Assembly: GCA_001829505.1 (NCBI GenBank)
Contig: MIBK01000022.1
Span: forward strand, 1 to 11,373
Length of the DNA stretch: 11,373 nt
Reading direction: 5' to 3'
Origin: Spirochaetes bacterium RBG_16_67_19
Lineage (GTDB): Bacteria > Spirochaetota > Spirochaetia > SZUA-6 > DRHE01
The notes under the pieces are model-generated. The model saw only the letters and a program-made list of their open reading frames with translations. It had not been told where the DNA came from and ran no database searches. Below are positions 28 to 10,663 of this stretch, piece after piece (position 1 is the stretch's first letter; every line of letters begins with the position of its first letter). The position numbers and the translations under genes are program-made.

Positions 28-56
28 TTGACAAGAACCCGTCTCTTTGCTAAAAT
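28..56 (+). promoter_or_regulatory. Sigma70-type promoter of the sugar operon
   Basis: A perfect -35 hexamer TTGACA (28-33) is separated by exactly 17 bases from the -10 hexamer TAAAAT (51-56, 5 of 6 consensus). TG at 48-49 also gives an extended -10 (TGCTAAAAT). Transcription should start near 62-64, leaving a leader of about 64 bases before the GntR gene at 127. A promoter this close to consensus in a catabolic operon implies strong expression unless a repressor blocks it, which fits the GntR-family gene just downstream. Seen directly; activity is inferred. Confidence 0.8.
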
Positions 57-126: not shown

Positions 127-873
127 ATGGACGTCGAAAAACTGAACCCTCATAGCAAGCTGCCTCTCTACCAGCAGCTTTACGAGCTGCTGGAGGCCAA
201 GATCCGCACCCAGCAGTGGAAGCCGGGGGACATGATCCCTCCGGAATCGGACTTGATCGCCACCTACCAGGTGAGCCGCATCACAGTACGCAAGGTGCTG
301 GACATCCTTGTCAAGGAAGGGCAGATCAAGCGCGAGCGGGGACGCGGCAGCTTCGTGGCCCCGCCGAAGCTGGAGCACGGAATGACCCGCATCATCAGCT
401 TCACCGACGACATGAAGCAGCGCGGTTACACGCCCGGAACGCGCATCCTATTCGTCGACCTAGTGCCGGCTTCGTCCAATATCGCCCGCTTCCTCAAGGT
501 GCCCGAGGGGGAGGAACTGGCCTATATCTCCAGGCTCCGCCTGGCCGACGATGAGCCGATGTGCATCGAGGAGTCCTTTCTCGTCCATCGCTACTTCCCG
601 GGCATCACCAAGTACGACCTGGCCAAGAACTCGTTGCGGGAGATCAAGCAGAAGAAGTATGGAATACGCTGGTCGCGGGCCGAGCAGACGATTCAGGCCA
701 TCAGCGCGCCCCCGGAAATCGCCCGTTCCCTGTCCATCCGCGCCAATACCCCTTTGCTGTACATCGAGCGGGTGACCTTCTCCCAAGACAACATCCCCAT
801 GGAATACCTGAGGGTCTACTACCGCGCCGACCGCTACGCCCTGCACAACGAACTGGTGGGCGGCGCCGGATAG
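127..873 (+). CDS. GntR/HutC-family transcriptional regulator with UTRA domain
   Basis: This 248-residue protein has the layout and length of the HutC subfamily of GntR repressors. A winged helix-turn-helix spans about residues 12-78; its recognition region VSRITVRKVLDIL is at 49-61 and the wing RGRGSFV at 71-77. A UTRA ligand-binding domain spans about 95-240, with the family-typical PMCIEESFLVHRYFPG (144-159) and PLLYIERVTF (209-218). UTRA domains bind small metabolites, often sugar phosphates or amino-acid derivatives, and release DNA. Being the first gene of the operon, with the isomerase SD overlapping its stop codon region, it is most likely an autoregulated local repressor induced by a pathway intermediate. 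The ligand cannot be read from the sequence. Family assignment is firm; the regulatory target is inferred from position. Confidence 0.93.
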   Translation: MDVEKLNPHSKLPLYQQLYELLEAKIRTQQWKPGDMIPPESDLIATYQVSRITVRKVLDILVKEGQIKRERGRGSFVAPPKLEHGMTRIISFTDDMKQRGYTPGTRILFVDLVPASSNIARFLKVPEGEELAYISRLRLADDEPMCIEESFLVHRYFPGITKYDLAKNSLREIKQKKYGIRWSRAEQTIQAISAPPEIARSLSIRANTPLLYIERVTFSQDNIPMEYLRVYYRADRYALHNELVGGAG

Positions 874-880
874 AAGGAGG
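874..880 (+). promoter_or_regulatory. Strong Shine-Dalgarno for the GTG-started isomerase
   Basis: AAGGAGG begins at the base after the GntR stop codon (TAG 871-873) and lies 6 bases before the GTG at 887. It selects the GTG as start and couples the isomerase closely to the regulator. Confidence 0.85.
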
Positions 881-886
881 AAAATC

Positions 887-2317
887 GTGGATCGTCAAAA
901 GCTGCTGCTGGGGGTCGCCCCCACGCGCAGGTTCGTTTTCTCCGCGGAAGACGCGGCGCGCTACAAGGCGCGCGTGGAGCAGAAGCTGCGCGACTGGCGA
1001 ATCGAGTTCGTCGGCATCGACCCCGTCAATCCGGAGGGAATGCTCTTCGAGCGCGGGCATGCGACAGCCGCCGTGGAGCTGTTCAAGCGGGCGGGGGTGG
1101 ACGCCGTGTTCTGCCCGCACGTGAATTTCGGAACCGAGGAGGTCGTGGCCCAGCTGGCGCGGGAGCTCGGCAAGCCTTTCCTGCTGTGGGGGCCCCGCGA
1201 CGAAGCCCCGCTGCCGGATGGCAACCGCCTGCGCGACACCCAATGCGGGCTGTTCGCCACGGCGAACGTGCTGAAAAAGTACCGAGTTCCCTTCTCCTAC
1301 ATCGTGAACTCCCGGCTGGAGGACCCGGTGTTCGAGCGCGGCCTGCGGACCTTCCTGTCAGCCGTTGCCGCGGCCAGGGCCTTTCGGGGAGCGCGCATCG
1401 GCCAGGTGAGCACCCGGCCTCCCAACTTCTACACGATGATCATCAACGAGCAGGACCTGCTGCTGCGCTGGGGAATCGAGATGGTGCCCCTGGACCTGGT
1501 GCGCCTGGTCGACGGGGTCAAGAAGATCGCCGCCGCCGATCCGCGAGCCAAAAAAGAGGCCGAGGCCATCGGCGCGCGCGCCGACCGCCGCAACGTCCAG
1601 GACGACGCGCTGCTGCGGATCGCGGCCTTGAAGCTGTTCCTGCACGATTGGGCGGAGCGGGAGGAGCTCACGGCGATCGCCTTCAAGTGCCACGACGACC
1701 TGCCCGACTACCTGGGAATCTATCCCTGCTGGGTCAATGGGGAGCTGGCGACCATGAATGTCCCGGTGACCTGCGAAACGGACATCCACGGCGCCCTCAC
1801 CGCGGCGATGCTGCAGGCCGCGGCGCGCTGGGGCACGCCGCCATTTTTCGCGGACCTCACCCAGCGCCATCCGACGAATGACAACGCGGAGCTGCTCTGG
1901 CATTGCGGGAACTTTCCCATGGCCCTGGCCGCCGGGGAGGGACCGCGCTTCCTTGGAACCCACTTCGTCATCCCGCCCCACCGTCCCGGAACGGGTAACT
2001 TCGCCATCAAGGGAGGGGAGGTCACCATCGCCCGCTTCGACGGCCTGGATGGGGAATACTCCCTGATGATGGGCCAGGCCCGCAGCACCCCGGGGCCCTA
2101 TACCCTGGGCACCTACCTGTGGGTGGAAATGAACGACTGGCCGGCCTGGGAGCAGCGGATCATACGCGGTCCGTACGTGCACCACGTCGCCGGCATCCAC
2201 GGCAGCTACGCCCCGGCCCTCTATGAAGCCACCCGCTATCTACCGGGGGTGAGGCCGGATCCGGTCGAGCCCACCGCCGGGCAGATCGAGGCCTATCTGC
2301 GGGGCGCCGGCTCATGA
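887..2317 (+). CDS. L-fucose/L-arabinose isomerase-family protein (aldose-ketose isomerase)
   Basis: This 476-residue cytoplasmic enzyme belongs to the FucI/AraA-like isomerase superfamily, metal-dependent enzymes that interconvert free aldoses and ketoses through an enediol. It is shorter than E. coli FucI (about 590 residues) and close to the compact FucI-like group. The segment CETDIHGALTAAM (296-308) carries the probable metal-binding Glu297. FFADLTQ (320-326) carries Asp323. LWHCGNFP (337-344) carries His339, and the C-terminal YVHHVAGIHG (430-439) supplies His432/His433. This Glu/acid/His/His spacing resembles the AraA and FucI active sites. The GTG start is supported by AAGGAGG 6 bases upstream. 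It probably performs the first step of the operon's pathway, aldose to ketose. The substrate is unknown: the family covers L-fucose, D-arabinose and L-arabinose, and from memory also sulfoquinovose isomerases. Family confidence is high; substrate confidence is low. Confidence 0.87.
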   Translation: MDRQKLLLGVAPTRRFVFSAEDAARYKARVEQKLRDWRIEFVGIDPVNPEGMLFERGHATAAVELFKRAGVDAVFCPHVNFGTEEVVAQLARELGKPFLLWGPRDEAPLPDGNRLRDTQCGLFATANVLKKYRVPFSYIVNSRLEDPVFERGLRTFLSAVAAARAFRGARIGQVSTRPPNFYTMIINEQDLLLRWGIEMVPLDLVRLVDGVKKIAAADPRAKKEAEAIGARADRRNVQDDALLRIAALKLFLHDWAEREELTAIAFKCHDDLPDYLGIYPCWVNGELATMNVPVTCETDIHGALTAAMLQAAARWGTPPFFADLTQRHPTNDNAELLWHCGNFPMALAAGEGPRFLGTHFVIPPHRPGTGNFAIKGGEVTIARFDGLDGEYSLMMGQARSTPGPYTLGTYLWVEMNDWPAWEQRIIRGPYVHHVAGIHGSYAPALYEATRYLPGVRPDPVEPTAGQIEAYLRGAGS

Positions 2318-2328
2318 AAGGAAAACAG

Positions 2329-3153
2329 ATGCCGCAATCACCCGATTACCGCGCCCTGGCCAGGCAGGTGAGGCTGGATGTGCTGGAGATGACCGCTCGG
2401 CAGGGCGGACATCCGACCAGCTGCTTCTCCACCGTGGAAATCCTGCTCGCCCTGTACTTCGGCGGGATCCTGCGCTATCGGGCGAAGGAGCCGGAGTGGC
2501 CGGAGCGCGACCGCTTCATTCTCAGCAAGGGGCACGCTGCACCCGCTCTTTACGCGATTCTGGCCCGCGCCGGCTACTTTCCCCTGTCGGAGCTGGAGCG
2601 CTTCCGCACAATGGATTCCCCGTACCATGGTCATCCCAAGCAGAATGCTTCCTTAGGGATCGAAGTGACCAGCGGCTCCCTGGGGCAGGGACTGTCCTTC
2701 GGCCTGGGCACCGTGCTGGCCGCCCGCCTGGCGAAGCGGGACTCGCGGGCCTACGTGCTGACCGGCGACGGGGAGCTGCAGGAAGGGCAGGTCTGGGAGG
2801 CGGCGATGGCCGCCGGGCACTTCAAGGCGGACCATCTCACTGCCATCGTCGATTACAACAAGTACCAGCAGACCGGCCCCATCGAGCGGGAAATGGCCCT
2901 GGAGCCGCTCGCCGACAAATGGCGCGCCTTCGGCTGGCAGGTGTTGGAGGCGGACGGCCATGACGCGGCCGAAGTCGCCCGGCGCCTGGAAGCCGCCCGC
3001 GCCACGAGCGGCCGGCCACAGGTGCTGATCGCGCACACGGTAAAGGGCAAGGGGGTCTCCTTCATGGAGAAGGACTTCGCCTTCCATGCCAAAGCACCCA
3101 GCGGGGAGCAGCTCGAGCAGGCCAGGGAGGAATTGCAGAATGCGTATAGGTGA
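2329..3153 (+). CDS. Transketolase, N-terminal (TPP-binding) subunit
   Basis: This 274-residue protein is the pyrophosphate-binding half of a split transketolase. The thiamine diphosphate motif starts at GDG (146-148) and ends at Asn177 (VDYNKYQQ). Other family marks are RQGGHPTS (His28), SKGHAAPALY (His69), YHGHP (99-103) and SLGQGL (117-122). With the next gene it should form the active heterotetramer that moves a two-carbon ketol unit from a ketose (phosphate) to an aldose phosphate. Two starts are possible. ATG 2314 overlaps the isomerase stop (ATGA) but has no SD. ATG 2329 has AAAGGA 6 bases upstream and is chosen; the longer form would add only MKGKQ. Split transketolases are common in catabolic operons (for example apulose-4-phosphate and sulfoglycolytic transketolases), so the donor here need not be a standard pentose-phosphate sugar. 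Confidence 0.92.
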   Translation: MPQSPDYRALARQVRLDVLEMTARQGGHPTSCFSTVEILLALYFGGILRYRAKEPEWPERDRFILSKGHAAPALYAILARAGYFPLSELERFRTMDSPYHGHPKQNASLGIEVTSGSLGQGLSFGLGTVLAARLAKRDSRAYVLTGDGELQEGQVWEAAMAAGHFKADHLTAIVDYNKYQQTGPIEREMALEPLADKWRAFGWQVLEADGHDAAEVARRLEAARATSGRPQVLIAHTVKGKGVSFMEKDFAFHAKAPSGEQLEQAREELQNAYR

Positions 3154-4120
3154 GAAGGCGGGCCTGCCCGCCGGGACAAAACAGATGCGCGATGCGTTCG
3201 GCGAAGCTCTCGTGGAGCTGGCCCGGGCTGACGCGCGGGTGGTGGCCCTGGACGGGGACCTGTCCAGCTCCACGGGCATGGGAGCAATGCGCAAGGCCTT
3301 CCCCGAGCGCTTCTTCAACATCGGCATTGCCGAGTCCAACCTGGTCGGGGTCAGCGCGGGTTTCGCCGCCAGCGGCTACATTCCCTTCGTCGGCAGCCTG
3401 CCCTCTTTCCTGCTCAGCAATGCCTACGACCAGCTCCGCCTGCAGGTGGCCATTGCCGGGCTTAGCGTGAAGCTCCTGGGCAGCCACGCGGGAATTTCCA
3501 CGGGGCGGGAAGGGCCTACCTCGATGAGCATCGAGGATCTCGCCCTGACCTCCGCGCTGCCCGGCTTCACGATTCTGGTCCCCAGCGACCAGACCTCGAT
3601 GGCCGCGGCGGTTTTCGCCGCCGCCGAGCACAAGGGGCCGGTGTACATCCGCTCGAGCCGTGGCGCCTTCGCCCAGGTTTATGCCGACGGCAAGTGCCGC
3701 CTGGCTATCGGCCAGGCCAACCTGGTTCGCCCCGGAGGCGACGTCAGCCTCCTGGCCTGCGGAATGATGACCGGGGTGGCCCTGGACGCGGCCGCCCTGC
3801 TGGCAGAGAAGGGCTGCCAGGCCCGGGTGCTGGACATGCTCAGCCTGAACCCCCTGGACCGCCCGGCGATCGCGGCCGCGGCGCGCGAAACCGGAGCGAT
3901 CGTCACCGCGGAAGAGCATCTGGTGCGCGGCGGCCTGGGCTCCTCCGTGGCCCTGATCGTGGCGGAAGAGCACCCGGTGCCGGTCCGCTTCGTGGGAATA
4001 CGGGACACGTACATGGAATCCGCGTCGGTGGAGGAGCTGATGAGCCGTCATCGGCTCACCGCCCAGGACATCGTCCGGGCCGCGGAGGAAGCGATCGCGG
4101 CCAAAAGGAAGGGGGAATAG
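3140..4120 (+). CDS. Transketolase, C-terminal subunit
   Basis: This 326-residue protein carries the pyrimidine-binding domain (about 10-180) and the C-terminal transketolase domain (about 195-320), matching the usual length for the second half of a split enzyme. The catalytic glutamate that activates the thiamine ring is Glu65 in NIGIAESNLVG (60-70). GSHAGISTGREGPTSMSIED (114-133) and VYIRSSRG (168-175) are substrate- and cofactor-side loops, and EEHLVRGGLGS (258-268) is the typical C-domain motif. The start at 3140 has GGGAGG 9 bases upstream and overlaps the end of the N subunit by 14 bases, which suggests translational coupling and equal production of the two subunits. An open frame continues upstream to 3086 but has no SD there. 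The sugar donor is unknown. Confidence 0.92.
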   Translation: MRIGEKAGLPAGTKQMRDAFGEALVELARADARVVALDGDLSSSTGMGAMRKAFPERFFNIGIAESNLVGVSAGFAASGYIPFVGSLPSFLLSNAYDQLRLQVAIAGLSVKLLGSHAGISTGREGPTSMSIEDLALTSALPGFTILVPSDQTSMAAAVFAAAEHKGPVYIRSSRGAFAQVYADGKCRLAIGQANLVRPGGDVSLLACGMMTGVALDAAALLAEKGCQARVLDMLSLNPLDRPAIAAAARETGAIVTAEEHLVRGGLGSSVALIVAEEHPVPVRFVGIRDTYMESASVEELMSRHRLTAQDIVRAAEEAIAAKRKGE

Positions 4121-5410
4121 ATGCTGCGCCAGGATCTGCTGCAGCTGGAAAGTCAGGGCCGGCGCATCCGGGTCGCGGTGAGCGGCGCGGGCTGGATCGG
4201 CGGCGGTTTCGTCACCCAGGTCGCGCGCATGAAGGGGATGGCCGTGAACCTGCTGGCGGACACGGATACAGCCCTGGCCCGCCAGGTGCTGGAATCCACG
4301 GGCCTGCCGGCGGGGAGGATCGTCGAGACGGAGAGTGTCTCGGCTGCCAGCGACGCCCTGGCCAAGGGGAAGGCTGTCGTCACCAGCTCCTACAGCCTGG
4401 CCGCGCAGCTGCGGGACGTGGACATCGTGGTGGATGTCACCCCGTCGCCGGCGATCGGGGCGGAAACGGCCTTCTCCTGCATCCAGCACGGCAAGAACGT
4501 GGTGCTGGTGAACATCGAAGCGGACGTCACCGTGGGACGCATCTTGAAGAAGCTCGCGGACCAGGCGGGGGTTCTCTATACCGTGTCCAACGGCGATGAG
4601 CCTGGCTGCCTCATGGAGCTGTGGGAGTACGTGAACACCCTCGGCTTCCAGCCCATCGCCATCGGCAAGGGGAAGAACAACGCGCTGAACGTGCAGGCCA
4701 CCCCGGAGACCGTCGCCGAGTCGGCCCGCAGGGACGGCAAGGATCCCTACCAGATCGCCTCCTACGTTGATGGAACGAAAACGATGTTCGAGATGACCTG
4801 CGTGGCCAACGCCACGGGTTGTCTGCCGATAAAGCGCGGCATGGTGGGGCCGGAGGCCGATCGCCGGACCGTGAACGACATCTTCGCCCTGCGCGAGGAC
4901 GGCGGGATCTGCCCCTTCCCCGGGGTCGTGGACTTCGTGCAGGGCAGCGACATGTCGGGAGGGGTCTTCCTGACGGTGCGCGTCGACAATGCCCGCCTGG
5001 CCGGGGACCTGAAATACCTGAAAGCGGGCAAAGGCAAGTACACGACCTTCTTCCGCCCTTACCACCTTTGGTTCATCGAGGCGCCTCTATCGGTGGCGCG
5101 TGCGCACCTCTACCGGGAGCCCTGGCTCGTGCCCCTGGATCATCCGGTGGTGGAGGTTCTCACCATCGCCAAGAAGGACCTGGCTCCCGGTGATGCTCTC
5201 GACGACTTCGGAGGGTACACCTTCCACGGAAGCATGGACCGGGCGGCGGAAGCGGAAAAACTGGAGGCATTGCCGGTAGGGCTGGCGCCGGGAGCGAAGC
5301 TCGTCCGGCCCGTGGCCAAGGGAGCGGTAATCTGCTGGGCGGACGTCCAGCTAAACGAATCCAGCACGGTCGTCAAGCTGAGGCGGCAGCAGGATGCGCG
5401 CCCGCAGTAG
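4121..5410 (+). CDS. COG4091 / DXR-like (DRL) family NAD(P)-dependent oxidoreductase with C-terminal SAF domain
   Basis: This 429-residue protein is of the type often labelled 'predicted homoserine dehydrogenase with SAF domain'. An N-terminal Rossmann fold binds NAD(P): SGAGWIGGG (21-29), then LLADTD (44-49) after strand 2. Family blocks follow: GKNVVLVNIEADVTVGR (124-140), SNGDEPG (156-162), IGKGKNN (181-187), SYVDGTKTMFEM (214-225) and FFRPYHLWFIEAPLS (310-324). A SAF-like domain spans about 343-421, including KKDLAPGDALDDFGGYT (351-367) and VAKGAVICWADVQL (398-411). From memory, the characterised member is the Brucella DXR-like enzyme (DRL/DXR-II), which converts 1-deoxyxylulose 5-phosphate to the branched 2-C-methylerythritol 4-phosphate. 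Many homologues have unknown roles. Here it starts at the base after the transketolase stop, with AAGGAAGGGGG upstream, inside a sugar operon. A role in oxidising or rearranging a sugar or polyol phosphate is more likely than isoprenoid or amino-acid synthesis. Family assignment is strong; the reaction is inferred. Confidence 0.85.
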   Translation: MLRQDLLQLESQGRRIRVAVSGAGWIGGGFVTQVARMKGMAVNLLADTDTALARQVLESTGLPAGRIVETESVSAASDALAKGKAVVTSSYSLAAQLRDVDIVVDVTPSPAIGAETAFSCIQHGKNVVLVNIEADVTVGRILKKLADQAGVLYTVSNGDEPGCLMELWEYVNTLGFQPIAIGKGKNNALNVQATPETVAESARRDGKDPYQIASYVDGTKTMFEMTCVANATGCLPIKRGMVGPEADRRTVNDIFALREDGGICPFPGVVDFVQGSDMSGGVFLTVRVDNARLAGDLKYLKAGKGKYTTFFRPYHLWFIEAPLSVARAHLYREPWLVPLDHPVVEVLTIAKKDLAPGDALDDFGGYTFHGSMDRAAEAEKLEALPVGLAPGAKLVRPVAKGAVICWADVQLNESSTVVKLRRQQDARPQ

Positions 5411-5455
5411 CGCCGCGGGGACGGGAGAAACAAACACTCGTGAAAGGAGCAGGCA

Positions 5456-6418
5456 ATGCGCATTGGCGTGTTCACTGTGCTGTTCCAGAATCTGAAGTTC
5501 GAAGAGGCCCTGGAGAAGATAGCCGCGGCCGGCCTTTCCGCCGTGGAAATCGGCACGGGCGGGTATCCCGGCAGCCATCACTGCCCGCTGGAGGAGCTGC
5601 TTGCCAGCGCGGCGGCACGGAAGGCCTATCTGGAGGCGGTGCGCCGGCGAGGGCTCGCCATCAGCGCCTTCAGCTGTCATTACGAGCCGCTGAGCCCCGA
5701 TCCGGCCCTGGCTGCGGAATCCGACCGGGTGTTTCGCCAGACCGTCGAGCTGGCGGCCCTGCTGGAAGTGCCGGTGGTCAACGTGGCTTCCGGCCTGCCG
5801 GCCGGACGGGCGGGGGATCTGAGCCCCAGCTGGGTGACCTGCCCCTGGCCGCCCCACAACCTGAGCATGCTCGACTACCAGTGGAACCAGGTGGCTATTC
5901 CCTATTGGCGGAAAGCGGGAAGCTATGCCCAGGAGCACGGAGTGAAGATCGCGGTGGAGATGCACCCCGGATTCCTGGTGTACAACGTCGAGACGCTGCT
6001 GCGGCTGCGCCAGGCCGTGGGACCCGTGCTGGGCTGCAACCTGGATCCCAGCCACCTGTTCTGGAACGGCGTGGATGTCCCGACCGCGATCCGCGCCCTC
6101 GGAGACTGCATCTTCCACGTTCACGGCAAGGACTGCCAGGTGGACTCCGGGAACGTGGCGGTCAACGGCTGCAACGACGGGAAGCCCTATACGGACATCC
6201 CGACCAGGGCCTGGACCTTCCGCAGCATAGGGTATGGACATGACGAGAAGGTCTGGAAGGACATCATGAGCGCTCTACGCCTGGTCGGCTACGACTACGT
6301 GATCTCCATCGAGCACGAGGACCCCCTGATGTCCATCGAGGAGGGTCTTTCCAAGAGCATCGCTCTGCTGGCCAACGTGGTGATGAAGGAAAAGCCCGGG
6401 CGGATGTTTTGGGCCTGA
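5456..6418 (+). CDS. Sugar phosphate isomerase/epimerase (xylose isomerase-like TIM barrel)
   Basis: This 320-residue COG1082/AP_endonuc_2-type TIM-barrel protein starts at strand beta-1 (MRIGVFTVLF). Typical elements are AVEIGTGGYPG (29-39), VVNVASG (107-113) and a set of probable divalent-metal ligands at barrel strand ends: Glu168 in VEMHPG (167-172), Asp197 and His200 in LDPSHLFW (196-203), His221/His223 in FHVHGKD (220-226), and Glu286 in SIEHEDP (284-290). Relatives are ketose 3-epimerases and aldose-ketose isomerases, with some dehydratases. In this operon it could reset C3 of a ketose so that it fits the 3,4-threo requirement of transketolase, or isomerise the aldose left after C2 transfer. 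AAAGGAG at 5443-5449, 6 bases before the ATG, sets the start. A 45-base gap separates it from the oxidoreductase, the largest in the operon, with no terminator or promoter visible. The fold is certain; the reaction is not. Confidence 0.85.
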   Translation: MRIGVFTVLFQNLKFEEALEKIAAAGLSAVEIGTGGYPGSHHCPLEELLASAAARKAYLEAVRRRGLAISAFSCHYEPLSPDPALAAESDRVFRQTVELAALLEVPVVNVASGLPAGRAGDLSPSWVTCPWPPHNLSMLDYQWNQVAIPYWRKAGSYAQEHGVKIAVEMHPGFLVYNVETLLRLRQAVGPVLGCNLDPSHLFWNGVDVPTAIRALGDCIFHVHGKDCQVDSGNVAVNGCNDGKPYTDIPTRAWTFRSIGYGHDEKVWKDIMSALRLVGYDYVISIEHEDPLMSIEEGLSKSIALLANVVMKEKPGRMFWA

Positions 6419-6432
6419 GGCCGGGCGCCCCC

Positions 6433-6437
6433 AGGAG
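6433..6437 (+). promoter_or_regulatory. Ribosome binding site for the TTG-started kinase
   Basis: AGGAG lies 6 bases before TTG 6444. No ATG or GTG lies in frame near the N-terminal strand of the PfkB fold, and the strand itself (TIVCLGELLMD) begins at the next codon, so TTG is very likely the real start. Confidence 0.75.
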
Positions 6438-6443
6438 CAGGCC

Positions 6444-7427
6444 TTGACGATCGTATGCCTGGGCGAGCTGTTGATGGACCTGTTCCCCGCGGAACAGGGG
6501 GCGGAGCTCGCCGCCGTTTCCGCTTTCCTGCCGGTCCCGGGCGGTGCCCCCGCCAACGTCGCCGTGGCGGCGGCGAGGCTGGGGGCCGACGCGGCTTTCA
6601 TGGGCAAGGTCGGCGACGACGGCTTCGGCCGGCGCCTGGCCTCGGTTCTCACGGAGAACGCCGTCGATACCCGCGGGCTGCGCTTCGACCAGGAAGCCCG
6701 GACGACCCTCAACTTCCTGACCCTGCCCACCCCTAACTCCTACGAGTGCCTCTTCTATCGCGGGGCCGATGCCCTGTTCAGCCCGCAAGACATCGACGCC
6801 GGGCTGCTGCGGGAAACGGCGATCTTCCATTTCGGCTCGGTGAGCCTGAGCGAGGAACCCTGCAGGAGCGCGACCCTCGAGGCCGCCCGCCTGGCTCGGG
6901 AGGCGGGAGCCCTGGTTTCTTTCGACGTGAACTACCGGCCCACGCTCTGGCGCGAGCCGGCCGAGGCGCCGCCCCAGATCAGGAAGGCGGCCGCGGCTGC
7001 CGATCTGCTCAAGGTGAACGAGTCGGAGCTGCGGTTGCTGGCGGGCGGCGACGACCCGGAATCAAGCGGCGGCGCGCTCCTGGACCTCGGGCCTGCGATC
7101 CTGATCGTCACCCTCGGGGAGCAGGGATGCGCTCTGGTGAGGCGGTCCGGCTGCGCCCGCTACGCCGGCTTCCGCCTGCCCGCCGTGGACGCCACAGGCT
7201 GCGGGGACGCCTTCGTGGGCGCCTGGCTCGTGGAAGCCGCCTCCCTGCTGGGACCTTTCGCGAAGGACCGGGCCGCGCAGCTGGCCGGTCTGTCGGAGCA
7301 GAGCCTGGCGGCCGTATGCCGTTTCGCCAACGCGGCGGGAGCGTTGACGGCCACGAAGAAAGGAGTCATTCCCGCGCTGCCGGCGCGCGGCCGAGTGCTG
7401 GAGCTATTGGGCCGGACCCGCGGCTGA
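6444..7427 (+). CDS. PfkB-family carbohydrate kinase (fructokinase/2-keto-sugar kinase-like)
   Basis: This 327-residue ribokinase-fold enzyme phosphorylates a sugar with ATP. The N-terminal strand CLGELLMD (5-12) carries the sugar-contacting acid. The first PfkB signature is GGAPANVAVAAARLG (33-47), with GKVGDDGFG (54-62). DVNYRPTLWR (161-170) and LLKVNESE (188-195) are fructokinase-like, and the ATP/anion-hole motif DATGCGDAF (249-257) provides the catalytic base Asp255. Cys replaces the commoner Ala or Gly in the GxGD motif, a variant also seen in fructokinases. It lies 25 bases after the epimerase and uses a TTG start with AGGAG, which may lower its output relative to the other genes. It is the last gene of the operon and the only kinase, so it probably makes the phosphoketose that the transketolase uses. 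Family certain; substrate open. Confidence 0.9.
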   Translation: MTIVCLGELLMDLFPAEQGAELAAVSAFLPVPGGAPANVAVAAARLGADAAFMGKVGDDGFGRRLASVLTENAVDTRGLRFDQEARTTLNFLTLPTPNSYECLFYRGADALFSPQDIDAGLLRETAIFHFGSVSLSEEPCRSATLEAARLAREAGALVSFDVNYRPTLWREPAEAPPQIRKAAAAADLLKVNESELRLLAGGDDPESSGGALLDLGPAILIVTLGEQGCALVRRSGCARYAGFRLPAVDATGCGDAFVGAWLVEAASLLGPFAKDRAAQLAGLSEQSLAAVCRFANAAGALTATKKGVIPALPARGRVLELLGRTRG

Positions 7428-7494: not shown

Positions 7495-8760
7495 ATGCGG
7501 ATGACCGAGCGCATGACCAAGCGGGAGCCTGCCCGCGCCCCCGCTGCGGCGGTGCAGTTCTTCAAGACGCTGTTCGCCGAGTACCAGCGCGACCAATGCC
7601 TGGCCCGCGCCGGAGGCCTGGCCTTCGCCACCCTGCTGGCCCTGGTGCCCCTGCTGGCCCTGATGTTTTCACTCTTCTCCGCCCTGGGCTCGTTCAGCGG
7701 CCTGCTGGAGCGCTTCGAGGCCTTCCTGCTCACCCAACTGGTGCCCGCCAGCCAGGAGGAGATCATGGCCTACGTGCAGCGCTTCGTGCGCAACTCGCGG
7801 GCGCTGGGGGTAGCGGGCCTGCTGTTCTTCCTGGCCACGGCCGTGTTCCTGCTGAACGCGGTGCAGAACTCCTTCAACGCCGTCTGGGGCAGCCGGCCCC
7901 GGCGCAACTCGCTGCACCGCCTGGCCACCTATGCCTCCATCCTGATCGTCGGCAGCTTTTTGCTCAGCATCGGCCTGAACCTGTTCGGCGTGGCCCGCTC
8001 GCTGGTCGGTGGGCCGGCGGTGGCCGAGCTGGGCAGGAGCCTGTCATTCCCCACGGCGGTGGCCCCCTCCGTGTTCATCTTCCTGGCCCTGCTGCTGATG
8101 ATCGCCCTGCTGCCTTCCGGCCGGGTGCGCTTCGGCAGCGCCCTGGTCGGGGCGGCGGCCGGGTTGGTGCTCTGGGAGCTGGCCCGCCGGCTGTTCTTCC
8201 TGTGGATCACCTACGTGCTGCGCATGTCCGTGATGTACGGCTCCCTGGCGGCGGTGCCGATCTTCCTGATCTGGCTGTACGTGGCCTGGTCCGTGGTGCT
8301 GCTGGCCCTGGAGATCGCCTACCTGCATCAGCACCGGCGCTCCGCCTGGCTGGGGCGCCCGCCCCGGGAGCTCAGCCCGGCGGACCGCCTGCTGCTGGGC
8401 CTGGAGGTCTTCCTGGACATCGCGGGCCGTTTCTACCGGGGGGAGAAGGCACCCAGCCGGGAGCAGATCGCCCAGCGGCTGGACGCCTCTCCGCTCGAGG
8501 TGAACGTTTACACCGACCTTCTGCTGGCCAACGGCCTGGTGACCTTCGCCGGGCCGTCGGGCGAGCTGCTGATGCCGGCCCGCTCCCTGGACGGCATTCG
8601 CCTGCAGACCCTCATGGCCTGCCTGTTCCGGGGTTCGGCGCGGCCGACGCGCCGCGGAGGGGCGGCGCTGGGCCTGTACGAAGCGGTGACCGGCGCGGCG
8701 GACGGTTTGCTGGCGGAGCGCTCGGTCCTGGACTTCATCAAAGCGGGGTACAAACCATGA
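7495..8760 (+). CDS. YihY/BrkB-family inner-membrane protein with C-terminal cytoplasmic extension
   Basis: This 421-residue polytopic protein belongs to the YihY / virulence-factor BrkB family. After a basic cytoplasmic N-terminus come the family segment RAGGLAFATLLALVPLLAL (38-56) and hydrophobic helices at about 40-62, 102-122, 144-166, 186-207, 213-236 and 248-275. The family hallmark YGSLAAVPIFLIWLYVAWSV (248-267) is intact. The last 130 or so residues are hydrophilic; about 296-365 look like a winged-helix-type module (REQIAQRLDASPLEVN, TDLLLANGLVT), a tail found in the longer family members. The family was once wrongly called ribonuclease BN, and its real function is unsettled. ATG 7495 follows GGAG with 5-base spacing; ATGs at 7501 and 7513 are alternatives. 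The gene ends in an ATGA overlap with the MFS gene. Confidence 0.88.
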   Translation: MRMTERMTKREPARAPAAAVQFFKTLFAEYQRDQCLARAGGLAFATLLALVPLLALMFSLFSALGSFSGLLERFEAFLLTQLVPASQEEIMAYVQRFVRNSRALGVAGLLFFLATAVFLLNAVQNSFNAVWGSRPRRNSLHRLATYASILIVGSFLLSIGLNLFGVARSLVGGPAVAELGRSLSFPTAVAPSVFIFLALLLMIALLPSGRVRFGSALVGAAAGLVLWELARRLFFLWITYVLRMSVMYGSLAAVPIFLIWLYVAWSVVLLALEIAYLHQHRRSAWLGRPPRELSPADRLLLGLEVFLDIAGRFYRGEKAPSREQIAQRLDASPLEVNVYTDLLLANGLVTFAGPSGELLMPARSLDGIRLQTLMACLFRGSARPTRRGGAALGLYEAVTGAADGLLAERSVLDFIKAGYKP

Positions 8761-9920
8761 AAAGTCCGTACCGCTGGCTGGTGCTCGCGGTCTTCATGCT
8801 GGTGATTTTCATCAACCAGGCGTCGTGGATCACCTTCGCCCCGATTACCGGCGAAGCGGCCCGGCACTACGCCACCTCCGACCTGGTCATCGGCCTGCTG
8901 TCGATGGTGTTCATGATCGTCTACGTGCTGCTGGCCATCCCCTCGGCCTGGGTGATCGACAGCCGGAGTTTCCGGCTGGCCGTCGGGGTGGGGGCCCTGC
9001 TCACGGCCGCCGGCGCGCTGGCCCGGGGCGCGTTCGCCTCCAACCTGGCCCTGGTGTTCGTCGCTCAGCTGGGCATCGCGGTGGGGCAGCCGCTGATCCT
9101 GGGCTCGATCACGCGCCTGGCGGCCTGCTGGTTCCCCGTCGAGGAGAGGGCCACGGCCGCCGGCCTGGCCACGCTCTCCATCTACCTGGGCATCCTGGCG
9201 GCGATGATCCTGACCCCGATGCTGACGCTGCGCTACGGGATGCGGGGAATGCTGCTGGCCTACGGCTTCGTGGCCACCGCGGCGGCGGTGATCTTCCTGG
9301 CCGCGGCCAGGGAGCGCGCCCCGGATTCGGCGAGCCTACCCATGTTCGAAGGACTGAAAGCCATGCTGCGCAACCGGGACTTTCTCCTGCTGCTGGTCAT
9401 TTTTTTCATCGGGTTGGGCCTGTTCAACGGGGTCACCACCTGGATCGAGGCGATCGTGCGGCCCCGTGGTTTCAACAGCGCCCAGGCCGGCCTGCTGGGC
9501 GGCGCCATGCTGATCGGCGGCATCCTCGGCGCGGTGATCGTGCCCCTGGTTTCCGACGGCCTGCGCCGGCGCAAGCCGTTCATCATCCTGGCCCTGTTCG
9601 GCCTGCTGCCCGGGCTGGCCGGCCTGGCCTTCGCCAGGACCTCCTGGCTGCTGCTGGCCTCCGGCTTCTGGTTCGGCTTCTTCCTGCTGGCCGCGGGCCC
9701 GGTGGGCTTCCAGTACGGGGCGGAGCTGACCCGGCCGGCTCCGGAGGGCACCTCCAACAGCCTGCTGGTGGTCATGGGGCAGATTTCAGGCATCCTCTTC
9801 ATTTTCGCCATGGATGCCCTGCCGGGAACCATGACCGCCTCGCTGCTGGCCCTGATGGCCCTGAGCGTGGGCGCCGGCGTGCTGGCCTGCCTGCTGCGGG
9901 AGTCGCCGATCCGGGGATGA
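8757..9920 (+). CDS. MFS transporter, FLVCR-like
   Basis: This 387-residue integral membrane protein has twelve predicted helices, split into halves by a charged loop at about 183-207. Helix 1 begins at WLVLAVFMLVIFI (7-19). The stretch GQPLILGSITRLAACWFP (110-127) followed by ERATAAGL (130-137) resembles the FLVCR-like branch of the major facilitator superfamily, whose members have been linked to haem or small organic cation transport. The substrate cannot be inferred here. Its start codon overlaps the YihY-like stop (ATGA), with only a weak GGGG site upstream, so translation is probably coupled. Its own stop overlaps the next start in the same way. It has a separate promoter from the sugar operon, so treating it as that pathway's importer would be a guess. 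Confidence 0.87.
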   Translation: MKSPYRWLVLAVFMLVIFINQASWITFAPITGEAARHYATSDLVIGLLSMVFMIVYVLLAIPSAWVIDSRSFRLAVGVGALLTAAGALARGAFASNLALVFVAQLGIAVGQPLILGSITRLAACWFPVEERATAAGLATLSIYLGILAAMILTPMLTLRYGMRGMLLAYGFVATAAAVIFLAAARERAPDSASLPMFEGLKAMLRNRDFLLLLVIFFIGLGLFNGVTTWIEAIVRPRGFNSAQAGLLGGAMLIGGILGAVIVPLVSDGLRRRKPFIILALFGLLPGLAGLAFARTSWLLLASGFWFGFFLLAAGPVGFQYGAELTRPAPEGTSNSLLVVMGQISGILFIFAMDALPGTMTASLLALMALSVGAGVLACLLRESPIRG

Positions 9921-10663
9921 AGCCCAAGTACCGGGCGGTGCCCTTCTCGCTTCTCCGCCGGGCGGCGGCGGCCAGCGCCGCGGTGGCCGCGAAGCGCTCC
10001 ACCATCCACAGCCTAACCGAAGTGGACATCACCGAGCCGCGCCGCATCCTGCGCGAGCAGAAGCTCTCCCTGACCGCTTATGTGGTCGCCTGCCTGGCCC
10101 GGGCGGTGGCCGAAAACCCCCTGCTCAACAGCCTCCGCAAGGGCCGCCGGCTCATCCTGCTGGAGGACGTGACGGTGGCCGTGCTGATCGAGCGGGAGCT
10201 GCAGGGCGAGCGGGTGCCGGAACCTGTGGGAATTCAGAGGGCGCAGGCCAAGAGCTTCCGGCAGATCCATGAGGAAATCCGCGAGCACCAGCGCCACCCG
10301 CCCGACCGCCTGGGCAGCCTGTCCGGACTGAGCTGGGTGACCCTGCTGCCCAGTTTTCTTCTGCGCGCCTTCATGCGCCTGGGTTCCCGCAGCATCCGCC
10401 TGGCGGACCGCTACGGGGTTGTTGCTGTCACCGCGGTCGGCATGTTCGGCGAGGGGGCGCTGTGGTTTCTCCCGCTGAGCTCGGCCACCGTGGTGGTCAC
10501 GGTGGGCAGCATTGTCCAGCGGGAAGGGCGGGAGCACCTGTGCCTGACCGTGTCCTTCGACCACGCGATCGTGGACGGGGCCCCGGCCGCGCGCTTCATG
10601 CGCAGGCTGGCGGAGCTGATCCGCGGCGGCCAGCTGCTGGCCGGAGACGGGCAGCAACCCTGA
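9917..10663 (+). CDS. Stand-alone 2-oxo-acid dehydrogenase acyltransferase (E2 catalytic domain) protein
   Basis: This 248-residue protein aligns along its full length with the catalytic domain of dihydrolipoamide acyltransferases and chloramphenicol acetyltransferase-like folds. The active-site signature DHAIVDGAPAARFMRRL (215-231) holds His216 and Asp220-Gly221, the HxxxDG motif. AVTAVGMFGEG (170-180) and VVVTVGSIVQ (192-201) match core strands, and STIHSLTEVDITEPRRI (28-44) matches the N-terminal part of the fold. There is no lipoyl domain and no peripheral subunit-binding domain, and no E1 or E3 gene nearby, so it cannot be a normal pyruvate-dehydrogenase E2. It may transfer an acyl group from CoA to an unknown acceptor. 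It begins in an ATGA overlap with the MFS gene, which suggests coupled function. The gene ends 12 bases before the convergent gene. Fold confident; reaction unknown. Confidence 0.82.
   Translation: MKPKYRAVPFSLLRRAAAASAAVAAKRSTIHSLTEVDITEPRRILREQKLSLTAYVVACLARAVAENPLLNSLRKGRRLILLEDVTVAVLIERELQGERVPEPVGIQRAQAKSFRQIHEEIREHQRHPPDRLGSLSGLSWVTLLPSFLLRAFMRLGSRSIRLADRYGVVAVTAVGMFGEGALWFLPLSSATVVVTVGSIVQREGREHLCLTVSFDHAIVDGAPAARFMRRLAELIRGGQLLAGDGQQP

Follow-up and report, generated by a model that had tools for sequence, protein, structure and literature searches.

The window analysed here is the whole 11,373-base contig MIBK01000022.1 of Spirochaetes bacterium RBG_16_67_19, whose assembly (G000) amounts to 3.8 Mb at 84% completeness and 3.9% contamination. 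On its plus strand, between positions 127 and 7427, seven co-directional genes make up a sugar operon, in the middle of which a DRL-type enzyme is encoded, and both the open reading frames and the family assignments agree with the list given in an earlier, sequence-only reading of this DNA. The first gene (127–873) encodes a GntR/HutC-type regulator, recognized by matches to the GntR and UTRA domains. A FucI/AraA-type aldose-ketose isomerase with a GTG start (887–2317) follows, which its profile matches and the neighbourhoods of its relatives make a candidate D-apiose isomerase. The next two genes encode a split transketolase, namely the N-terminal thiamine diphosphate subunit (2314–3153), assigned from a profile match and from its best PDB match 6yak, a split-chain transketolase (E 3.7e-79), and the C-terminal subunit (3140–4120), for which we propose the ATG at 3140 as the start, the mechanical reading frame opening at 3086. 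The DRL-type NAD(P)-dependent reductoisomerase-like enzyme (4121–5410; DRL_cat, 179.9 bits), a xylose-isomerase-like TIM barrel of the 2zds/3-keto-glucal hydratase/ketose 3-epimerase group (5456–6418; 107 bits), and a PfkB-family sugar kinase with a TTG start (6444–7427; 198 bits) complete the operon. It is likely that the seven genes constitute a single transcription unit, because neighbouring genes overlap by at most 14 bases or adjoin with gaps of at most 45 bases. The observation of a sugar operon is confirmed, and the operon is, as read from its genes, a real and conserved combination of known parts with a predicted catabolic function.

Upstream of the regulator gene lies a sigma-70-type promoter-like site (28–56, plus strand; TTGACA, a spacer of 17 bases, and TAAAAT, with TG preceding the second hexamer), identified by consensus match only, at 11 of 12 positions. 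The end of its −10 hexamer (51–56) is overlapped by a probable operator, AATGTCATAACATT (54–67), a palindrome of the form AATGT-N4-ACATT. A promoter scan of the window returned 3 sites against 1.0 ± 0.8 in shuffled sequences. The earlier statement that the operon has one strong promoter therefore depends chiefly on the overlap of the site with the conserved operator.

With at most one mismatch and within 200 bases upstream of the GntR gene, the palindrome was found at 12 of 22 loci, the window among them (the sample is described below), with 0.34 expected from shuffles. Nine of the sites are perfect, and three of the 12 (L002, L003, and L029) are near kin that share an identical site; one further locus (L012) was dropped from the count because its upstream region is too short. 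The background is 8 sites with at most one mismatch in the remaining 346,603 bases. In the whole assembly the exact palindrome occurs once, at 54–67 of the window, compared with two sites for the backward control pattern, and this exact-pattern search found no further regulon members. The GntR and UTRA domains and a palindromic site near the regulator's own gene, both features of GntR/HutC (UTRA) regulators, are present. The operon is probably self-regulated by its GntR protein, and the predicted repressor most likely acts on this operon only, because the exact palindrome occurs nowhere else in the assembly.

Conservation of the module

A pattern search for close relatives of the window DRL yielded 35 contigs, which make 36 loci with the window; several of them are near kin, and many contigs end within the operon, so that absences mean little. 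The contigs are from Chloroflexota, apart from one of Atribacteria and one of Spirochaetales, and the nearest DRL relatives are likewise from Chloroflexota. Genes for the C-terminal transketolase subunit are present at 34 of the 36 loci, for the N-terminal subunit at 31, for a PfkB kinase at 28 (including one at L005 with 26% identity), for a GntR regulator at 24, and for the TIM barrel at 23. Parts of ATP-binding cassette (ABC) transporters accompany 19 loci, a Gfo/Idh-type gene 10, and a xylose/rhamnose-isomerase-like gene 7. The genes of a dehydrogenase complex are also encountered, E1-alpha at nine loci (counting L031, where it stands at the contig end, and L035, where it is on the other strand), and E1-beta and E2 at seven each, all three together in seven. 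A FucI-type isomerase occurs at only four loci, at one of which (L032) it is on the other strand, and a class II aldolase follows the DRL gene at four.

A common gene order is GntR, (isomerase), PfkB, the N- and C-terminal transketolase subunits, DRL, (E1-alpha, E1-beta, E2), and TIM barrel. The order in the window is unusual, with the isomerase in the usual place of the PfkB kinase and the kinase last. The Atribacteria locus has no TIM-barrel gene, and in that of Spirochaetales the DRL is preceded by a transketolase in one piece. At L012 and L016, a gene of the uroporphyrinogen-decarboxylase superfamily is situated between the DRL and the E1-alpha–E1-beta–E2 genes.

The conserved unit is the PfkB kinase, the two transketolase subunits, the DRL, and the TIM barrel, the FucI-type isomerase being an occasional add-on. 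A gene-neighbourhood comparison, proposed in the sequence-only reading, shows that the DRL-type sugar module recurs beyond this genome, and its conservation in 35 other contigs makes the grouping more than chance. The placing of a DRL-like enzyme in the middle of a sugar operon, which that reading had emphasized, is conserved well beyond the host genome; its set of six enzymes is not conserved as one, in view of the rarity of the isomerase. The absence of an aldolase step is true of the window but not of the four loci with a class II aldolase. As for the novelty of the combination, no description was found in the open-access literature searched, whereas the isomerase, kinase, and split transketolase follow the described logic of D-apiose degradation.

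Downstream of the operon and on the same strand are genes for a BrkB/YihY-type membrane protein (starting at 7495) and a major facilitator superfamily transporter (starting at 8757), together covering 7495–9920. The next plus-strand gene (9917–10663) encodes a protein of about 250 residues that matches only the catalytic domain of 2-oxoacid dehydrogenase acyltransferases (54 bits), the lipoyl domain being unmatched, and a minus-strand frame is also present downstream of the operon.

The DRL-type enzyme and the isoprenoid question

The window DRL aligns with the structure of DXR-II (3upl), whose numbering is followed here, over residues 3 to 426 (316 bits, E 2.9e-93). The equivalents of Lys191, Lys193, Thr229, Arg320, and Tyr322 are kept in the window DRL and in 31 of 31 aligned relatives (the four of the 35 without a frame of 380 residues were left out), and the window DRL also keeps Glu174. 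In section 6 of PMC3847144, the Lys/Lys/Thr set of DXR-II is described as anchoring fosmidomycin. Because these three residues are retained together with the Arg, Tyr, and Glu, the substrate of the window DRL is likely a sugar phosphate. The His250 position, reported in PMC3847144 as His in all but four DXR-II enzymes, is Val in the window DRL and His in 1 of the 31 relatives, compared with 10 of 10 DXR-II-like plasmid genes. These ten (L037–L039, L041–L046, and L101; Rhizobiales, Listeria, Ligilactobacillus, Priestia, and related) were picked from 111 matching records rather than drawn at random, and they were not paired with the accessions that PMC3847144 assayed. The CDP-sugar clusters L040, L104, and L105 and the unannotated L102 and L103 stand outside the ten.

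On the DRL tree the window type, comprising the window, 16 of the 35 relatives, and two additional genes, forms one clade (100/100), while the DXR-II-like genes of Rhizobiales, Listeria, Ligilactobacillus, Priestia, and others occupy two other forks. The window enzyme shares with the DXR-II/DRL family, which includes the alternative methylerythritol phosphate (MEP) synthase, the DRL_cat domain and the five residues above, but it differs in its own clade, in the missing His250, in its sugar operon, and in a host assembly without a DXR-I or IspG match. Its active site suggests that the enzyme may act as a DXR-II does, although the tree places it apart from the DXR-II-like genes. Homologues of the DRL whose active-site residues are altered were also seen in the CDP-sugar (rfbF/SDR/rfbC) clusters of Deinococcus and Paracoccus (L040, L104, and L105), where a function as a reductase or rearranging enzyme of deoxysugar synthesis is possible.

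The window DRL is unlikely to serve isoprenoid synthesis, because G000 (84% complete) has no DXR-I or IspG match and does contain one hydroxymethylglutaryl-coenzyme A (HMG-CoA) reductase. Gaps or mis-binning of the assembly could mislead here, since five of five sampled genomes of the host's family have both DXR-I and IspG. In a sample of 198 genomes of the class, no tie between the presence of a DRL and the MEP pathway is seen: DXR-I occurs in 19 of 35 DRL genomes versus 103 of 163 others (Fisher p 0.34), and 12 of the 35 have neither DXR-I nor IspG. Among genomes with IspG, however, a DRL is found in 4 of 7 without DXR-I versus 17 of 118 with it (p 0.015; G012 and G018, with IspG at E 2e-4 and 6e-4, were excluded from these IspG/DXR-I statistics), suggesting that some Chloroflexota DRLs may replace DXR-I. 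The four genomes with IspG and DRL but no DXR-I match (G021, G074, G096, and G155, at loci L057, L055, L051, and L047; IspG is partial in G155) are candidates for a DXR-II that truly serves isoprenoid synthesis, but their DRLs are not of the window type on the tree. An MEP pathway in the host is also no strict companion of DXR-II, as section 7 of PMC3847144 reports active DXR-II in Chloroflexus aurantiacus, which has the mevalonate pathway only, and in Finegoldia magna, which has neither. The possibility that the window DRL is an isoprenoid DXR-II that happens to sit in a sugar operon was thus rejected for G000, and we regard it as highly improbable.

Genomic context of DRL relatives

In Rhizobiales, Bacillota, and Chloroflexota, DRL relatives lie near genes for polyol uptake, for kinases, and for E1 and E2 proteins resembling those of pyruvate and acetoin dehydrogenases. 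The E1-alpha, E1-beta, and E2 genes are in the cluster at 8 of the 10 DXR-II-like plasmid loci (in L037 the E1 genes are 4.5–9 kb from the DRL), and a gut-type polyol phosphotransferase system (PTS) is present at 6 of the 10, two of these at a distance of 10–11 kb. Others of these loci have FGGY or PfkB-type kinases with ABC transporters, or fsa with a transketolase. Two Chloroflexota loci with a different DRL type (L115 and L120) combine an FGGY kinase, a DRL, a zinc alcohol dehydrogenase, and a FucI-type isomerase.

Known pyruvate and acetoin dehydrogenase complexes have the same E1-alpha, E1-beta, and E2 components that are encoded beside the DRL in some relatives; the window, in contrast, has no such complex, and most DRL-linked E1-beta proteins stand apart from controls. 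In a tree of 18 DRL-linked and 27 control E1-beta rows (controls from the same class, one E1-beta per locus, L134 dropped as a duplicate of L124), the linked rows cluster, with 3 label changes against 14.3 in shuffles and none of 500 shuffles as low. This clustering is inflated by near-copies, and three linked rows (L124, L147, and L148) group with controls, L147 and L148 being counted as linked with their E1-beta about 5.6 kb from the DRL. G000 has 10 E1-beta matches at E <= 1e-50; one of these (L153) was included in the tree, where it sits among the controls. Among NCBIfam models, the E1 proteins match pyruvate dehydrogenase E1 best.

This association with E1/E2 proteins and a polyol PTS was absent from the sequence-only reading, and it changes how the DRL step is read. 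It suggests polyol-phosphate catabolism, in which a branched polyol phosphate would be converted to a ketose phosphate. An acetoin-dehydrogenase-like complex would be a sensible next enzyme, because a 1-deoxy-ketose phosphate such as 1-deoxyxylulose 5-phosphate (DXP) is a homologue of acetoin.

Proposed pathway, alternatives, and meaning

In the reading that we favour, to which we assign somewhat less than an even chance, the operon is repressed by its GntR protein and serves the catabolism of a branched five-carbon sugar and/or its polyol, a substrate of the D-apiose type being our best single guess. The isomerase would convert the aldose to a 2-ketose (D-apiose to D-apulose), and the PfkB kinase would phosphorylate either this ketose or the branched polyol at a primary hydroxyl. 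The split transketolase would transfer a two-carbon unit from the ketose phosphate to glyceraldehyde 3-phosphate, yielding xylulose 5-phosphate and a triose phosphate. The DRL, running reductoisomerase chemistry in reverse, would oxidize and rearrange a branched polyol phosphate to a linear 2-ketose phosphate (apiitol phosphate to xylulose 5-phosphate, or the C-methyl homologue to DXP), and the TIM barrel may epimerize or isomerize a keto-sugar intermediate. In relatives with E1-alpha, E1-beta, and E2, the complex could release acetyl-CoA and an aldose phosphate from a 1-deoxy-ketose phosphate. This reading is supported by the 36-locus module, the retained DRL residues, the independence of the MEP pathway, the apiose-like neighbourhoods of isomerase relatives, and the polyol PTS, kinase, and E1/E2 context of the DXR-II-like genes.

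The described D-apiose transketolase pathway consists of an isomerase, a kinase, and a split transketolase (apsI, aplK, and aptA/aptB; PMC13001218). In the known clusters aptA/aptB accompany an FGGY kinase, and those of Rahnella and Klebsiella have an adjoining FucI-family isomerase. The window has the same three functions in one operon, including the two-gene transketolase, and relatives of its isomerase (42–46% identity) occur with a split transketolase and an FGGY kinase at L112, L113, L129, and L130 (Monoglobus, Listeria, and two Chloroflexota). Between the kinase of L112 and that of the E. coli apiose cluster, identity is 39%, and L130 adds a gene of the PF13204 apiosidase family (E 3.6e-93). 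With the isomerase that adjoins aptA/aptB in Rahnella and Klebsiella, the window isomerase shares 28.6% identity, and the two fall in different clades. The Listeria (L130, 1–15693) and Monoglobus (L129) loci are LacI–isomerase–split transketolase–glycerol-kinase-like operons, the former also with a beta-glucoside PTS; from their gene content they look like D-apiose operons whose isomerase clade differs from the enterobacterial one. The window differs in its PfkB kinase and its separate transketolase clade, and no DRL or TIM barrel is annotated in the apiose clusters read.

Several observations weigh against our reading. The closest isomerases (55–58% identity) are without an accompanying transketolase gene at the four loci inspected (L106–L108, on short contigs, and L111), and the next (L110, 48%) adjoins a class II aldolase; the isomerase tree labels two rows as aldolase-linked, with the neighbour scanned for L110 only. 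The transketolase (43% identical to E. coli AptA and 31% to AptB) forms a clade apart from those of apiose operons (both 100/100), and the kinase is a PfkB rather than the FGGY apulose kinase AplK. No apiosidase was found at the 36 loci or in the host assembly, and the operon (127–7427) contains no transporter gene. The window DRL also lies outside the DXR-II-like group, none of the ten appearing in the groups of 19 and 23 rows to which it belongs, and its next neighbours (98/95) are four genes, three in CDP-sugar clusters and the fourth unannotated, which have lost Lys191, Thr229, and Arg320. Finally, absences and binning are uncertain in an assembly of this completeness and contamination whose contig is the window itself. 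D-apiose as a settled assignment was set aside, its transketolase, kinase, and apiosidase tests having failed. It is our leading guess rather than an assignment, because the closest isomerases lack a transketolase, L110 is aldolase-linked, and the transketolase falls outside the apiose-type clade.

A rather unlikely alternative, though one with several points in its favour, is an ordinary linear-sugar operon, in which the isomerase and PfkB make a ketose phosphate, the transketolase recycles it, and the DRL and TIM barrel act as a dehydrogenase/epimerase pair on a keto-sugar in the style of glycoside 3-oxidation. In the TIM barrel, Glu168, Asp197, His223, and Glu286 are conserved in all 19 orthologues (window included; mean column identity 79%). 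The fold search with its predicted structure (predicted local distance difference test, pLDDT, 74.1) ranks 2zds, 8ro4, 2-hydroxy-3-keto-glucal hydratase, and ketose 3-epimerases, matches that do not decide between epimerase and hydratase. The linear-sugar alternative agrees with the Gfo/Idh/MocA dehydrogenases that adjoin TIM relatives (45–53% identity) at each of the three loci examined, which are from Listeria, Metabacillus, and a Chloroflexota plasmid, with the Gfo/Idh and xylose/rhamnose-isomerase-like genes counted above, and with the CDP-sugar clusters of the nearest other DRLs. These last, however, have lost Lys191 and Thr229, while the window DRL keeps its Lys/Lys/Thr set, which points to a small phosphorylated substrate. 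The TIM relatives, L131–L133 and matches on haloarchaeal plasmids among them, occur in Bacillota and haloarchaea, at 42–53% identity among the matches listed. We consider it unlikely, too, that the DRL module degrades 2-C-methyl-D-erythritol (or 1-deoxyxylulose), the window being a relative in which transketolase replaces an E1/E2/E3 complex. A kinase or PTS would then give MEP, the DRL would convert it to DXP by the reverse DXR reaction, and the complex would release acetyl-CoA and glyceraldehyde 3-phosphate. The E1/E2 genes at both sets of loci, the polyol PTS, the E1-beta clustering, the active DXR-II of hosts without an MEP pathway, and the listing of the Dxr step as reversible in PMC13001223 are consistent with this. 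It is hard to see, though, what the transketolase encoded at almost all window-type loci would do with DXP, and the separate window-type clade without His250, the E1-beta rows that group with controls (that of G000 included), and the pyruvate dehydrogenase models of the E1 proteins also argue against it.

A pathway for sulfoquinovose or a 6-deoxyhexose resembling sulfo-TK sulfoglycolysis, which pairs an isomerase (SqvD) with a transketolase (SqwGH), appears improbable. It was followed because the sole NCBIfam match of the isomerase at E <= 0.001 is the sulfoquinovose isomerase SftI, and sulfo-TK uses a PF02952 isomerase with SqwGH in passages of PMC9594981. Against the shared isomerase and transketolase logic stand the score of 119 bits (cut-off 700) and the kinase, which those passages do not describe for sulfo-TK and which is frequent in the module; sulfoquinovose was set aside. 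Moreover, no match to a sulfoquinovosidase, SqvB, SqwI, or sulfoacetaldehyde enzyme family came from a scan confined to ten proteins of the window. The other profile match of the isomerase, Pfam Fucose_iso_C, reaches 23.6 bits, below its cut-off of 29.3, and the predicted structure (mean pLDDT 55.8, residues 293–476 under 50) was not used. The myo-inositol pathway was also considered, from matches of the PfkB kinase and TIM barrel to IolC and IolE models and from the class II aldolase of some relatives; all these matches are below the cut-offs (no search was aimed at IolD).

The most interesting part of these results is the evidence for a catabolic life of the DRL/DXR-II family. We tentatively propose, as a possibility well short of even, that the family is catabolic at its root, with the reductoisomerase reaction running in reverse to channel phosphates of branched polyols (2-C-methylerythritol or apiitol) into central metabolism. 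A dedicated, undescribed "1-deoxyxylulose-5-phosphate dehydrogenase" of E1/E2/E3 type would split the C-methyl product, and transketolase the hydroxymethyl product. According to a 2026 review (PMC13001223), DXR-II shows no defining distribution pattern except overrepresentation among certain pathogens. This patchy distribution has so far had no agreed explanation, and the operons, as evidence for a catabolic role, open the question to direct experimental test. If true, a catabolic root would account both for the patchy spread and for the presence of DXR-II in bacteria without the MEP pathway, and it would give an acetoin-dehydrogenase-like complex a new use. Plant D-apiose and 2-C-methylerythritol occur naturally, and the operon would represent a bacterial sink for such branched sugars and polyols, an enzyme family known from isoprenoid synthesis apparently being reused to break down an unusual, probably branched, sugar.

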